From Patescibacteria group bacterium (GTDB lineage Bacteria > Patescibacteriota > Patescibacteriia > WFTA01 > S139-112): 32,688 nt of DNA. The notes beneath the pieces were generated by a model. It did not search any database and had not been told where the DNA came from. It saw only the letters and a program-made list of their open reading frames with translations. Shown one piece after another: positions 1,196-18,241 of the stretch. Location of the stretch: the NCBI GenBank assembly GCA_015485695.1, contig WFTB01000029.1, forward strand, positions 1-32,688, read 5' to 3'. A program made the translations under genes and the position numbers. Within the stretch, counting starts at the first letter, position 1. Each line of letters starts with the position of its first letter.

Positions 1196-1471
1196 ATGAA
1201 AGAAGATTCGTCTACAAGTGATGGTGAGTTTGAGCGTCCGTACATCTCTGCGGTCGTGGAATCTTTGAGTGAGAGCACTGCCACAGTATTAACTTCGGAC
1301 AATCAAAAAATCACAATTCCAAAGGACAAGCTTCCGAAAGACGCGTCCGATGGAATGCGAATTCGGCTTATAATTTCATCGGACAGAGATGAAAGCGTGG
1401 AGCGTGAATTACTCGCCAAATCCATACTGAACGAAATTTTGAACGGTGTTGGCGAGGAATATGTTCGATAA
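1196..1471 (+). CDS. Small DUF3006-like protein
   Basis: A 91-residue soluble protein. Residues 17-60 (ISAVVESLSESTATVLTSDN, then KITIPKDKLPKDASDGMRIRLII) match the DUF3006 pattern: a short beta segment, a self-describing strand pair, a K-LP turn and a G-x-x-I/L-x-hydrophobic strand. This fold probably resembles a small beta barrel; its role is not known. The C-terminal helix (ELLAKSILNEILNG) is an addition. The stop codon overlaps the ATG of the following VanW gene, so the two are probably translationally coupled. Assignment rests on pattern only. Confidence 0.7.
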   Translation: MKEDSSTSDGEFERPYISAVVESLSESTATVLTSDNQKITIPKDKLPKDASDGMRIRLIISSDRDESVERELLAKSILNEILNGVGEEYVR

Positions 1472-3308
1472 GAAACATAAAAAATTGATAATAAAAAAGT
1501 GGCTTGATTTATCTGTGGTCGCTTTTTTTGTGTTTGCGGTTTTGGTAATTGCAATTCCTCAATTGATGAGAGTCGCTTGGTCCGGCGAGGCGTATCCTGG
1601 AGTTTTGGTGGGCAATCACAATGTTGGTGGGATGAATTACGATGAGTTGAAAGCGTTTCTTACCAAAGAGTGGAACAAAGTCGGTCAAGAGGGTATCGTT
1701 CTGACCCTTGATGGGCGAAACATGACACTGTATCCGACGGTTACGTCTACCGGCGATCCGGATTTGAGTTATGATGTTGTCGTGTTCGACATGGACAAAA
1801 CGATAAGTCGAATTTTAGCAATCGGTCGCGAGAGAGATTTTTACTCTTGGTTTCTCTCCCCATACATAAGCCTTGCGAATAAGCGAGAGGTAAAAGCGGA
1901 TGTTCGGGTTATGCCCGGAGTGTTACAAGAGATAGTTCGTAAAAATTACGAAGACCGTATCGTTGAAGCCGAAGACGCTCGTTTTGAAATCTCTGACAAT
2001 GAAATAATCTTGGTGCCGGAGAAGTCCGGATTGTCCATTGATGTCGGAAATGTCGTCGGTCAAATAGAAGAAAGGTTTTTTATGCTTGATGACAATCCGG
2101 TTGAAATTTCGCTTTTGACGGTGAAACCAGATGTATATGTGCAAGACATAAGACCGTTGATGGACGATGCGCGCGAGGTTTTGGATAGGGCTCCCTTTGT
2201 CATAGAAGCCGACATTACCAATTCTTCTCGTCGTAAATTTTATTGGAGCAGATCCATAACCGCGGAACAAGTTCAAAATTGGCTTGGCGCAAAGAAAGAC
2301 GGCAATGGAGTAGTGAGTTTGGGTTTTAACAACTCTCTCATCGATTATTTGAGTCGGTTGAAAAAAGAAATTGACCTTGAGGCCAGGGATGCGAAGTTTG
2401 ATATATCCGAATCCGGTCGCATAACAAAGTTTCAGGCATCTCGAGACGGAAGGTCGATTGACGTAAGTGAGTCGTATGCGAAACTTGAGCGCGATATCAT
2501 TGACAACAAACAAACAAAATCCGAATTGGTGGTGGATTTGGTAGAACCTCTTATAACAATGGAAAAAGCGAACAATCTCGGTATCAAGGAGGTTTTGGGT
2601 GTCGGTACATCGAATTTTTCCGGGTCACCGAAAAACAGACTCAAAAACATAAAAGTCGCGTCTGATAAACTAAACGGTCTTTTGATAAAGCCGGGAGAAG
2701 AGTTTTCCTTGGTAAAAGCTTTGAAGCCGTTTACCACGGATGAAGGCTATGTTCCGGAATTGGTGATAAAAGGCACGAAACTGGTTCCTGAACTTGGCGG
2801 TGGCGCGTGTCAGATAGGCACCACATTGTTCAGGGCCGTTTTGGACGCCGGTCTTGATATCACTCAGAGGAGAAACCACTCTTTTGCGGTAAGTTATTAC
2901 AACGATGAATACGGTCTGCCGGGGACTGACGCGACAATATACGATCCGGCTCCGGATTTTAGATTTAAAAACGACACGGACAACTATATTCTGATACAAA
3001 CCGATGTTGGAGACGATGGCATACTTACCTACACGTTGTGGGGAACGTCTGACGGAAGAAACGCCTCCATAAGCAAGACTAAGATATTGGATTCTTTTCC
3101 CGCTCCGGACACTAAATACATAGAAACCGAAGACCTGTCACCCGGTACGGTCGAATGCACCGGCAACAATGTTCCCGGATACAACACATCATTCACATAT
3201 TCAATCACATACTCGGACGGAACTTCTCATGAAGAGGTATTTGATTCGTACTACCGTCCATTCCAGCGCGTTTGTCTTGTCGGTATCGGTGAAATCGAGA
3301 AAGATTGA
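1461..3308 (+). CDS. VanW-family membrane-anchored cell-wall protein
   Basis: A 615-residue protein. One membrane segment (about residues 13-31, VVAFFVFAVLVIAIPQLM) anchors a large extracytoplasmic part. The middle resembles tandem putative peptidoglycan-binding domains of the YoaR type (PG_binding_4). The C-terminal third is the VanW domain: GVGTSNFSGSPKNRLKNI, then KPGEEFSLVKAL, the invariant-looking LGGGACQIGTTLF, and RRNHSFAV...GTDATIYDP. Domain order and length fit the YoaR/VanW family, whose biochemical role is unsettled. I chose ATG 1461 over an upstream in-frame GTG at 1446 because GCGAGGA lies at good distance before it and it overlaps the stop of the previous gene. The gene ends with TGA, evidence against TGA recoding. 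Confidence 0.88.
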   Translation: MFDKKHKKLIIKKWLDLSVVAFFVFAVLVIAIPQLMRVAWSGEAYPGVLVGNHNVGGMNYDELKAFLTKEWNKVGQEGIVLTLDGRNMTLYPTVTSTGDPDLSYDVVVFDMDKTISRILAIGRERDFYSWFLSPYISLANKREVKADVRVMPGVLQEIVRKNYEDRIVEAEDARFEISDNEIILVPEKSGLSIDVGNVVGQIEERFFMLDDNPVEISLLTVKPDVYVQDIRPLMDDAREVLDRAPFVIEADITNSSRRKFYWSRSITAEQVQNWLGAKKDGNGVVSLGFNNSLIDYLSRLKKEIDLEARDAKFDISESGRITKFQASRDGRSIDVSESYAKLERDIIDNKQTKSELVVDLVEPLITMEKANNLGIKEVLGVGTSNFSGSPKNRLKNIKVASDKLNGLLIKPGEEFSLVKALKPFTTDEGYVPELVIKGTKLVPELGGGACQIGTTLFRAVLDAGLDITQRRNHSFAVSYYNDEYGLPGTDATIYDPAPDFRFKNDTDNYILIQTDVGDDGILTYTLWGTSDGRNASISKTKILDSFPAPDTKYIETEDLSPGTVECTGNNVPGYNTSFTYSITYSDGTSHEEVFDSYYRPFQRVCLVGIGEIEKD

Positions 3309-5307: not shown

Positions 5308-5336
5308 TTGACACAGAAGTTCTTCTATGATACACT
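5308..5336 (+). promoter_or_regulatory. Strong sigma70-type promoter of the candidate ncRNA
   Basis: A perfect TTGACA (5308-5313), a 17-base spacer and TACACT (5331-5336) predict initiation near 5343. No open reading frame of plausible length follows on the plus strand before the terminator at 5710, so the transcript is most likely non-coding. Confidence 0.75.
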
Positions 5337-5342
5337 CCAGGG

Positions 5343-5736
5343 TCAATTTGAAAATGTATTGCCGAGATTGTTGAAATAATCTTTGTTCTAATGTCTTTCT
5401 TATCGGTCAGGCACGACGAGCATGGGGATTATTGTTAGGTAACTACAGGGCTTCGCGCCTCGTGTTATCCTTCACAATAGTTTTCTTGCCTGACCGCTTG
5501 GAAAGACATTAATTTCATTTATCATCCGAGCCCCTAAGGTGAGGCACGATTTTCCGTCACATTTGTGGCGTACCGGGGATTCGACCTTTGCGGTCGAAAA
5601 AGTCATGGCTCGACCTCATTCCTTCGTATGGCGCTCATGCGCCATACACCTTCCTCGCCTTCAGGGCTCGCGTGAGATTTTGTTTTTCAGCTAAATTATT
5701 TGTTTAGATAAAACCGACATATGTCGGTTTTTTGTT
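5343..5736 (+). ncRNA. Unassigned structured non-coding RNA of about 390 nt
   Basis: This stretch has its own promoter (5308-5336) and terminator (5710-5736) and no plausible gene. It contains two long-range base-paired domains. Domain 1: AATGTCTTTC (5390-5399) pairs perfectly with GAAAGACATT (5501-5510). After a 4x4 internal loop, CGGTCAGGCA (5404-5413) pairs perfectly with TGCCTGACCG (5487-5496). Domain 2: CGAGCCC (5527-5533) pairs with GGGCTCG (5664-5670), and AAGGTGAGG (5536-5544) pairs with CCTCGCCTT (5653-5661). This encloses local hairpins such as TCGACC..GGTCGA and TATGGCGC..GCGCCATA. I cannot match it to tmRNA (no tag frame, no CCA end), SRP RNA (no GGAA tetraloop and AGCAG) or RNase P RNA (no GAGGAAAGTCC). 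A highly divergent member of one of these is still possible. Confidence 0.65.
5710..5736. terminator. Bidirectional intrinsic terminator
   Basis: AAAACCGACAT and ATGTCGGTTTT form a perfect palindromic hairpin, followed by TTGTTT on the plus strand. It can end both the plus-strand ncRNA and the minus-strand metallo-beta-lactamase-fold gene, whose stop codon begins at 5738. Confidence 0.8.
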
Positions 5737-15367: not shown

Positions 15368-18241
15368 ATGTCGCATATGAAACGGTATGATCACAAATCC
15401 ATAGAAAAAAAATGGCAATCTCGTTGGAAAGAAAGTGGAATATTCAAAACCGCCGACAACGAGAATGGAAAAAAATATTATATTTTGGATATGTTTCCAT
15501 ACCCGTCAGGAGTCGGTTTACATGTGGGACATCCTAAAGGATACATCGCGACTGATATTATTTCGCGACACAAACGTATGCAAGGATATGAAGTGTTGCA
15601 TCCGATGGGTTGGGACGCGTTCGGGCTTCCGGCGGAGAACTACGCGCTCAAGAACAAGGTGCACCCGTCTGTTGCGGTCAAGGAAAACATCGCGACTTTC
15701 AAACAACAGCTCAGTCTAATCGGATTTGACCATGATTGGTCAAGAGAAATAGATACCACCGATCCAGAGTATTACAAATGGACTCAATGGGTATTTGTCC
15801 AGATGTTCAAAAAAGGACTCGCATTTGAGTCCAATGAGCCTATAAATTGGTGCCCATCGTGCAAAACCGGTCTTGCGAACGAGGACTTGGAACAAGGCAA
15901 GTGCGAACGGTGCGGGTCTGACGTGGAACAGCGACCCATACGGCAGTGGGTGTTACGAATCACCGATTATGCGGACAGATTACTTGAAGGTTTGGACAAT
16001 CTTGATTGGGAAGATTCCATAAAGGAAATGCAGAGAAATTGGATCGGTCGAAAAGATGGAGCTGAGATTGATTTTAAAATTTCAAATTCACGATTTTCAA
16101 TTCCAGTATTCACGACGAGGCCGGATACCATATTTGGAGCGACATATATGGTATTGGCTCCGGAGCATCCATTAATCTCAAATCTTAAATCTCAAATCTC
16201 AAATTGGGAAGAAGTTGAGATTTATATTAAAAATTCCAGAAAGAAAACGGAATTGGAGCGGACCGATCTTGCTAAAGAGAAAACAGGCGTAGAGCTTAAG
16301 GGAATCAAAGCAATCAACCCCGCAAGCGGAGAAGATATACCCGTGTGGATTGCCGACTATGTTCTCGCGGGGTATGGAACGGGGGCTATAATGGCTGTAC
16401 CCGCGCACGATGAACGAGATTGGGGGTTTGCTCAAAAATACAAACTTCCCGTTAAACAAGTTGTCGCTCCGTTGTTTTCCGCAACAGGAGACCACCCTGA
16501 TGCGATACGACATGACAAGAAAACCGTAACGCGAAACAATGTGTATGTTATGGTGAAGCATTGGGATAAAGATGCTTATCTTTGTCTTGATTGTACGCAT
16601 GCCGACCATTGGCGATCCTTTGTTGTGGGCGGGGTGAATGAAAATGAATCGATAATTGAAGCCGCAAAACGCGAGTTGGTTGAGGAGACTGGGTATAGAA
16701 ACATAGCAACGATACGTGAGATACCGAACAGCGAGATACACTCGTCATATTATGCCGGACACAAAGGGGTGAATAGATACGGTAAATGTAGAGTTGTGTA
16801 TATGGAGCTTGCCGACGGCGAGCAATCGGAGATGTTCGACGAAGAAAAAGAAAAGCATGATCTTGTTTGGGTGGATGAGAAGGATGTGGCTTCTTTTCAA
16901 TCGTTTGGCAATTTATTGCATGCGTGGAAGGTGTTTCGAGGTGAAGTAACCGCGTATACCGGTGATGGAGTTGTGATTAATTCGGATTTTCTCAATAATC
17001 TCTCTGTTGACGAAGCGAAGACAAAGGTCATTGATTGGCTTGAAAAGGAAGGGAGCGGAAAGAGAGCGGTAACGTATAGACTCAAGGATTGGGTATTCTC
17101 TCGCCAGCGGTATTGGGGCGAACCGATTCCGATTGTTCACTGCGAGAAGTGTGGCGCCGTTCCGGTTCCGGAAGACCAATTACCGGTCATGCTTCCGGAG
17201 GTCGAGCGTTATGAGCCGACCGATACGGGCGAATCGCCACTTGCCAACATTGACGAATGGGTGAACACGACATGTCCGTTATGTGGCGGTCCTGGCAAGC
17301 GCGAGACAAACACAATGCCGCAATGGGCGGGGAGCTGTTGGTATTATCTGCGCTATATTGATCCTCATAATTCGAATGCGTTCGTGGACAAAGACAAAGA
17401 AAAGAAATGGTCGCCAGTCGATTTGTATGTTGGTGGAGCCGAACACGCGACACGACACCTTATTTATTCGCGTTTTTGGCATAAGTTTCTCTACGATATC
17501 GGAGCGGTGCATTATGACGAACCGTTTACGCGCCTTCAGCATGTAGGTCTGATTCTCGCTGAAGACGGACGCAAGATGAGCAAGCGTTGGGGCAATGTAA
17601 TCAACCCGGATGACATTGTAGAAAAATTCGGCGCTGACACACTGAGACTGTATGAGATGTTCGCGGGACCGTTCGAGCAATCGGTAACTTGGAATTCCAA
17701 CGGAATAATCGGTGTTAGAAAATTCATCGAAAGAGTATTAAAGTTGCAAGAAAAAGTGAAGCGCGATTTTTCCGATTCGGACGATACGCTAAGATTGTTG
17801 CACAAGACGATTAAAAAAGTGACTCAAGATATAGAAAAAATTCGCTTTAACACGGCAATTTCTCAAATGATGATTCTATCAAATCATCTTGCAAAGGAAG
17901 AATCAATTTCCAAAGAAACATTTGAATCGTTTGTCGCAATACTGGCGCCGTTTGCTCCGCATGTGACGGAAGAGATGTGGCAAAAATTGGGCAACGATGG
18001 ATTTTTGGCTCTGGGTCCGTGGCCGGATTTTGACGAAAGCCTCGCTATGGACGATGAAGTTGAGTGGGTATTTCAAATAAACGGAAAAGTCCGGGACAAA
18101 GTAATGCTTCCCGGCGACGTGTCGGAAGAAGAAGCCAAAAACAAAGCATTGGAATCGGACAAAGTGAGAAAAACACTGGGAGATAAAAAACCAAAGAAGA
18201 TAATATTTGTAAGAGGGAAATTGGTTAATATTGTTGCTTAA
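15368..18241 (+). CDS. leuS: Leucyl-tRNA synthetase with an embedded Nudix domain
   Basis: A 957-residue class I synthetase charging tRNA-Leu. The catalytic signatures are HVGH (52-55) and KMSKR (736-740). Zinc-binding cysteine pairs occur in CPSC...CERC and CEKC...CPLC. The CP1 editing domain has its T-rich TTRPDT (249-254) and the GYGTGAIMAVPAHDERD segment with D348 and D351. Between this and TAYTGDGVVINSDFL lies an insert of about 140 residues (roughly 385-525). It contains a perfect Nudix box at 421-443: G421, E427, R435-E436, E439-E440 and G442. It follows a typical beta strand (NNVYVMVKHW) and GG turn and ends near HAWKVFRGE. Ordinary LeuRS has only a short loop here. The tRNA-binding C-terminus is normal. 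ATG 15377 is an alternative start. A 7-nt tandem repeat lies in the editing domain. Confidence 0.96.
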   Translation: MSHMKRYDHKSIEKKWQSRWKESGIFKTADNENGKKYYILDMFPYPSGVGLHVGHPKGYIATDIISRHKRMQGYEVLHPMGWDAFGLPAENYALKNKVHPSVAVKENIATFKQQLSLIGFDHDWSREIDTTDPEYYKWTQWVFVQMFKKGLAFESNEPINWCPSCKTGLANEDLEQGKCERCGSDVEQRPIRQWVLRITDYADRLLEGLDNLDWEDSIKEMQRNWIGRKDGAEIDFKISNSRFSIPVFTTRPDTIFGATYMVLAPEHPLISNLKSQISNWEEVEIYIKNSRKKTELERTDLAKEKTGVELKGIKAINPASGEDIPVWIADYVLAGYGTGAIMAVPAHDERDWGFAQKYKLPVKQVVAPLFSATGDHPDAIRHDKKTVTRNNVYVMVKHWDKDAYLCLDCTHADHWRSFVVGGVNENESIIEAAKRELVEETGYRNIATIREIPNSEIHSSYYAGHKGVNRYGKCRVVYMELADGEQSEMFDEEKEKHDLVWVDEKDVASFQSFGNLLHAWKVFRGEVTAYTGDGVVINSDFLNNLSVDEAKTKVIDWLEKEGSGKRAVTYRLKDWVFSRQRYWGEPIPIVHCEKCGAVPVPEDQLPVMLPEVERYEPTDTGESPLANIDEWVNTTCPLCGGPGKRETNTMPQWAGSCWYYLRYIDPHNSNAFVDKDKEKKWSPVDLYVGGAEHATRHLIYSRFWHKFLYDIGAVHYDEPFTRLQHVGLILAEDGRKMSKRWGNVINPDDIVEKFGADTLRLYEMFAGPFEQSVTWNSNGIIGVRKFIERVLKLQEKVKRDFSDSDDTLRLLHKTIKKVTQDIEKIRFNTAISQMMILSNHLAKEESISKETFESFVAILAPFAPHVTEEMWQKLGNDGFLALGPWPDFDESLAMDDEVEWVFQINGKVRDKVMLPGDVSEEEAKNKALESDKVRKTLGDKKPKKIIFVRGKLVNIVA
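16174..16201 (+). repeat. Four tandem 7-nt repeats inside leuS
   Basis: AATCTCA, AATCTTA, AATCTCA and AATCTCA occur in direct succession, then a partial AAT. They encode ISNLKSQISN within the editing domain, between APEHPL and NWEEVE. Seven is not a multiple of three, so loss or gain of one unit would shift the frame. Confidence 0.9.

Follow-up and report, generated by a model that had tools for sequence, protein, structure and literature searches.

A conserved rod-shaped RNA of ABY1 Patescibacteria and its possible resemblance to RNA polymerase-binding RNAs

In the genome of a Patescibacteria group bacterium, a strongly folding stretch of DNA lies between ruvB and a β-lactamase-superfamily (MBL) gene, each encoded on the minus strand. 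We refer to the whole 32,688-nucleotide stretch analysed (contig WFTB01000029.1, positions 1 to 32,688, plus strand) as the window, and give all coordinates as positions within it (Table 1). A sequence-only reading of this gap had described a gene-free structured RNA with a TTGACA-N17-TACACT promoter and its own terminator, and each of these elements is present: the promoter matches 10 of 12 consensus positions and carries TG ahead of its −10 element, a terminator hairpin with a T-rich tail closes the unit, and no open reading frame of at least 80 amino acids is listed inside 5308-5736. Transcription is predicted to start near 5343. The plus strand of 5340-5736 folds with −149.8 kcal/mol, compared with −102 ± 5.35 kcal/mol in shuffled sequences (z −8.9), and none of the shuffles folds as well. 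Folding alone cannot pick the RNA strand, because the minus strand of the same stretch folds equally well (z −9.6). The covariance-model score at the locus is 71.6 bits on the plus strand and 6.7 bits on the minus strand, and the agreement of this score with the promoter, the terminator and the conserved motif identifies the plus strand as the RNA strand.

Table 1 Features of the RNA locus, in window coordinates
Feature	Position	Strand	Basis or partner
Promoter, sigma-70-type, TTGACA-N17-TACACT, extended −10	5308-5336	+	Sequence
5′ leader	5343-5388	+	Sequence not conserved; start site inferred
P0, 5′ strand TAATGTCTTTC	5389-5399	+	Partner 5500-5511
Conserved core domain	5399-5502	+	Covariance-model match, 76.9 bits with model R1, 71.6 bits with model R2
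P1, 5′ strand GGTCAGGCA	5405-5413	+	Covariation
10-nt 5′ bulge CGACGAGCAT, consensus CGACRAGCAU	5414-5423	+	Near-invariant alignment columns 17-26
P2, 5′ strand, GGGGA start with conserved G·U wobbles	5424-5447	+	Covariation
Apical element, GG 5448-5449 and CU 5459-5460, variable loop between	5448-5460	+	Conserved pairs
P2, 3′ strand, UUUUC end	5461-5485	+	Covariation
P1, 3′ strand TGCCTGACC	5487-5495	+	Covariation
P0, 3′ strand	5500-5511	+	Partner 5389-5399
Domain 2, second long hairpin domain	5522-5675	+	Arms 5522-5544/5653-5675
Intrinsic terminator	5710-5731	+	Hairpin, then T-rich tail

Rfam returned no match to the RNA at gathering scores and only chance-level ones up to E = 10, and searches of the window and its relatives at gathering and permissive thresholds likewise gave only scattered chance-level matches. 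The models of tmRNA (RF00023) and RNase P RNA (RF00010), which a genome of this kind should encode among its housekeeping RNAs, give no match here, and each of the two RNAs lies elsewhere in the genome (C14:5328-5727 and C47:40118-40500, respectively), in line with the earlier remark that neither strand shows signatures known for them. That remark extended to SRP RNA, and no SRP model (RF00169 or RF01854) matches at the locus. 6S RNA was also rejected as the identity, as RF00013 gives no match at the locus even at E = 10. We found no earlier description of the RNA in the literature, of which our coverage is incomplete, so a prior account is possible.

Two paired domains had been proposed in the RNA; both are present, but they are not equivalent, and only domain 1, in which 28-nt arms (5389-5416/5484-5511) are 86% complementary, is conserved class-wide. 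The family-defining part of the RNA is therefore the stretch of about 120 nt at 5389-5511. We scored a 32-pair structure in an alignment of 106 sequences (A2) and observed that 88.9% of cells were paired, whereas shuffles reached 66.3% and slid versions 39-54%. Cells changed on both sides numbered 747, against 227.5 ± 12.5 in shuffles, although such counts are inflated by kinship among the sequences, which the slid controls keep, and A2 was fitted to a similar covariance model, so that the fitting favours the structure. In the first MAFFT alignment, which was not model-fitted, double changes were already visible in 16 of 23 pairs. The first register suggested for P2 by RNAalifold (G27-U145) was dropped for G27-C144, which covaries better. 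Very strong covariation and conservation and the empty Rfam search together uphold the earlier description of an unassigned structured RNA, and we regard it as almost certain that these sequences form a genuine, conserved RNA family that Rfam 15 lacks.

Covariation shows the RNA to be a long rod. P0 and P1 form its closing stem of about 20 bp, an asymmetric bulge lies midway, and the apical stem beyond it has a constant length. The flanks lengthen the closing stem, to a mean of 18.4 pairs in each sequence's own flanks versus 10.2 in mismatched flanks, and within P1 97.4% of cells are paired and seven of nine pairs have changed on both sides. The bulge is near-invariant in sequence (CGACAAGCAU); in 100 of 106 members it measures 10 nt, and a single unpaired U (U5486 in the window) lies opposite. 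P2 covaries along its whole length, from a GGGGA/UUUUC base with G·U pairs kept in 100 and 89 of 104 sequences to a near-invariant GG/CU element at the tip, where the G·U pair G64/U79 is found in 95 of 104 sequences and the G-C pair G65/C78 in 98 of 104. The tip as a whole resembles GGC-UUCG-GCU with a variable loop. Between bulge and apical element, the 5′-strand spacer measures 24.4 ± 0.9 nt while its letters covary freely. In three members (L004, L034 and L035) the core reaches 133-137 nt, with a longer hairpin in place of the apical loop and a seemingly unchanged position of the GG/CU element.

A DNA search of 57 relatives revealed three further genomes that match the query from 5405 onward. 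The copy in L002, from the same taxonomic family, occupies the same ruvB-MBL gap; those in L003, where 5S rRNA precedes the RNA, and in L004 lie elsewhere, each beside a VanW-like gene. By eye, that gene resembles the VanW family and is convergent with the RNA in both genomes, and a similar gene in the window (1446-3308) precedes the RNA by about 2 kb. A 20-letter pattern detected copies in 85 of 192 genomes of the class, with one match in total for the reversed control. Covariance model R1, which was built from 30 sequences and gives rough E-values, detects the RNA in 336 of the 381 class genomes examined and, among the good ones, in 293 of 319 (88-92%), nearly always as a single copy; strict filters could overlook divergent copies. 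When 20 of the class genomes that lacked a hit were searched again permissively, two yielded one, in one case weak and doubtful. Members are mostly Falkow-, Uhr-, Magasanik-, Kerfeld-, Komeili- and Buchananbacteria, which together constitute the GTDB class ABY1. Across a sample spanning the phylum, ABY1 accounts for 31 of the 34 positive genomes, and the remaining three, with a fourth, come from one small sister class (four of its seven genomes); a permissive re-search of 18 genomes from other classes did not find the RNA. Sister-class homologues (L213, L214 and L215) keep P1, GGGGA/UUUUC-like pairing and the promoter, with the bulge shortened or absent. The sequence-only reading had left a choice between a divergent housekeeping RNA and a lineage-specific one, and the family has both traits, being class-specific and housekeeping-like in its distribution. 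Its retention, mostly as one copy per genome, by roughly nine tenths of the species in the class makes it probable that the RNA has a basic, undescribed job. A metagenome-assembled contig labelled Enhydrobacter sp. (L147) also has the RNA pattern; its bin is probably mislabelled or mixed.

Family-wide signals indicate how the RNA is transcribed. The promoter pattern TTGACN-N16-18-NANNNT, applied strictly with at least four of six matches demanded in the −10 element, lies upstream of 50 of 86 members, and the median distance from predicted start to core is about 36 nt. A terminator-like hairpin comes next, within 150 nt, in 45 of 78 members. For 63 of 82 members, the next downstream gene runs opposite to the RNA, which argues for separate transcription and action in trans, and the RNA is most likely its own transcription unit. 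A cis-acting leader or riboswitch of the neighbouring gene would account for the conserved internal loop sequence and for the 19 of 82 members with a downstream gene on the same strand, but is highly improbable given the prevailing opposite orientation, the neighbours that vary among members (ruvB/MBL, 5S rRNA and VanW-like genes) and the terminator that the window RNA has of its own. Long inverted repeats could mark a DNA element, such as a recombination or replication hairpin or the remnant of a mobile element. We find this scarcely credible: the G·U pairs at the base of P2 are sensible only as plus-strand RNA, promoter and terminator keep a fixed orientation, the element is nearly always single-copy in a genome and its exact pattern is absent from 2.9 million viral contigs.

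The architecture of the family invites comparison with RNAs that bind RNA polymerase. 6S RNA (ssrS, RF00013) binds the RNA polymerase holoenzyme and serves as the template of pRNA. It has a rod shape, in which a central bubble separates closing and apical stems and the apical arm carries a '−35'-like region (PMC8876501). The RNA described here is similarly a widespread, free-standing long rod with closing and apical stems, but the unpaired region between them, a near-invariant 10-nt bulge, is one-sided (10 nt versus 1 nt) whereas the bubble of 6S is two-sided, and its core is about 100-120 nt. None of the 38 relatives searched (38 of 38) has a match to the 6S covariance model, which suggests that the niche of 6S is unoccupied. 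Ms1 of Actinobacteria, an RNA of about 300 nt with extra end hairpins, sets a precedent: it is lineage-specific, binds RNA polymerase and occurs where 6S is missing (PMC9130861). Set beside the published description of Ms1, our family would be another lineage-level RNA of 6S-like outline; most members are apparently shorter than 300 nt from predicted start to terminator, and polymerase binding, demonstrated for Ms1 with the core enzyme, is here proposed from shape. We treat the resemblance to 6S and Ms1 as an analogy of shape and not as demonstrated homology or function.

On this analogy, we tentatively propose that the free-standing, trans-acting RNA encoded by 5343-5736, whose family occurs in ABY1 and a small sister class, may hold RNA polymerase in a 6S/Ms1-like manner. 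The family, its structure, distribution, promoter, orientation and trans arrangement rest on the observations above, whereas the polymerase as partner and the regulatory role are inferred. In this mechanism, the likeliest in our view though well short of even odds, the rod would imitate an opened promoter, with the invariant bulge (whose short RNA copy, in the 6S-like reading, would start near AUGCUUGUCGUG) occupying the place where RNA polymerase grips melted DNA and the apical element, at its fixed distance, falling roughly where the −35 contact would be made. In cells that grow slowly or starve, the RNA would in this way hold or store the enzyme. At an open promoter, about 22 bp separate the centre of the −35 element from the edge of the melted DNA; the spacer of the RNA is close to this value, which may be coincidence. 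A helix between CAAG of the bulge and CUUG on the 3′ side is conceivable and would recall the one by which the central bubble of 6S-1 RNA collapses (PMC8876501). Three observations weigh against polymerase binding: Rfam shows no 6S similarity up to E = 10, the bulge is one-sided, with a near-invariant 5′ side facing the single U, and the sister-class homologues L213 and L214 are without most of the bulge, which a promoter mimic should keep. If the RNA is indeed a 6S-like polymerase ligand, it is less novel.

Two conserved sites at a fixed spacing, in a near-universal single-copy RNA, would also suit the structural component of a ribonucleoprotein yet to be described, in which the RNA is bound at the bulge junction and the apical GG/CU, a reading that we rate nearly as high. 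One version of it is a substitute for bacterial SRP RNA, which is likewise a short rod with a housekeeping distribution and is undetected in this phylum: SRP RNA models are empty in 9 of 9 and 19 of 19 relatives, and the small SRP RNA model matches 0 of 145 sampled Patescibacteria, from ABY1 or other classes, compared with 11 of 14 control genomes. The substitute is harder to reconcile with the tip of the RNA, from which S-domain letters are absent (GGAA-type tetraloop, symmetric loop), with the classes that are without this RNA and also show no SRP RNA, and with Parcubacteria, reported to be without both ffh and ffs (PMC4508563). The lack of SRP RNA matches in the phylum sample itself fits that report.

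A base-pairing regulator, in which the bulge CGACRAGCAU, together with the GGGG after it, recognises one or several target RNAs while the rod does no more than present it, seems to us rather unlikely. A near-invariant bulge among freely varying helices is as expected of a seed, and the RNA is trans-acting; however, the bulge region has no exact complement longer than 8 nt in 23S or 5S rRNA, tmRNA or RNase P RNA, the RNA gene itself aside, a seed needs no fixed spacer to an apical element, and the bulge is absent in the sister class. Across these readings, we think it reasonably probable that the RNA represents an undescribed ABY1 housekeeping class with two contact sites at fixed spacing, serving RNA polymerase or some ribonucleoprotein where 6S and SRP RNA are undetectable. 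To our knowledge, class-wide, near-single-copy structured RNAs absent from RNA libraries are rare, and such class-wide RNAs have often been found to serve central machines. Patescibacteria make up a large share of bacterial diversity and reportedly lack components such as SRP; the presence of this RNA in about 90% of one of their classes points to biology invisible to protein-based annotation.

Downstream of the core, domain 2 is a real structure and a family-specific 3′ extension, so far common to one same-family relative only. Its 23-nt arms are 78% complementary, and folded alone the domain reaches z −6.1, with no shuffle equally good. The stem CCCCTAAGGTGAGG/CCTCACCTTCGGGG is recognisable, by eye, only in L002, where it leads into a T-rich tail. 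Comparison of the window with L002 shows no frame that looks conserved among the small ORFs of domain 2. The 12-mer GGTSAGGCACGA occurs in both core and domain 2 (GGTCAGGCACGA at 5405-5416 and GGTGAGGCACGA at 5538-5549), a possible trace of a decayed tandem core copy; domain 2 was rejected as a second core copy, as the model scores at most 1.9 bits there. Two tandem cores about 210-250 nt apart are found in other members, for example L006 and L009-L012. In these Buchananbacteria-type genomes the tandem cores, spaced at about 230 nt, share one promoter, and the outer segments of L006 (CTAATCTGTAGGTC and GACCTACAGATTAG) are complementary, so that a larger RNA fold is possible. Elsewhere in the window, a 957-amino-acid leucyl-tRNA synthetase (15368-18241, plus strand) carries an insertion behind its editing domain, namely a NUDIX domain at residues 410-507 (Pfam PF00293, E 5.8e-9).
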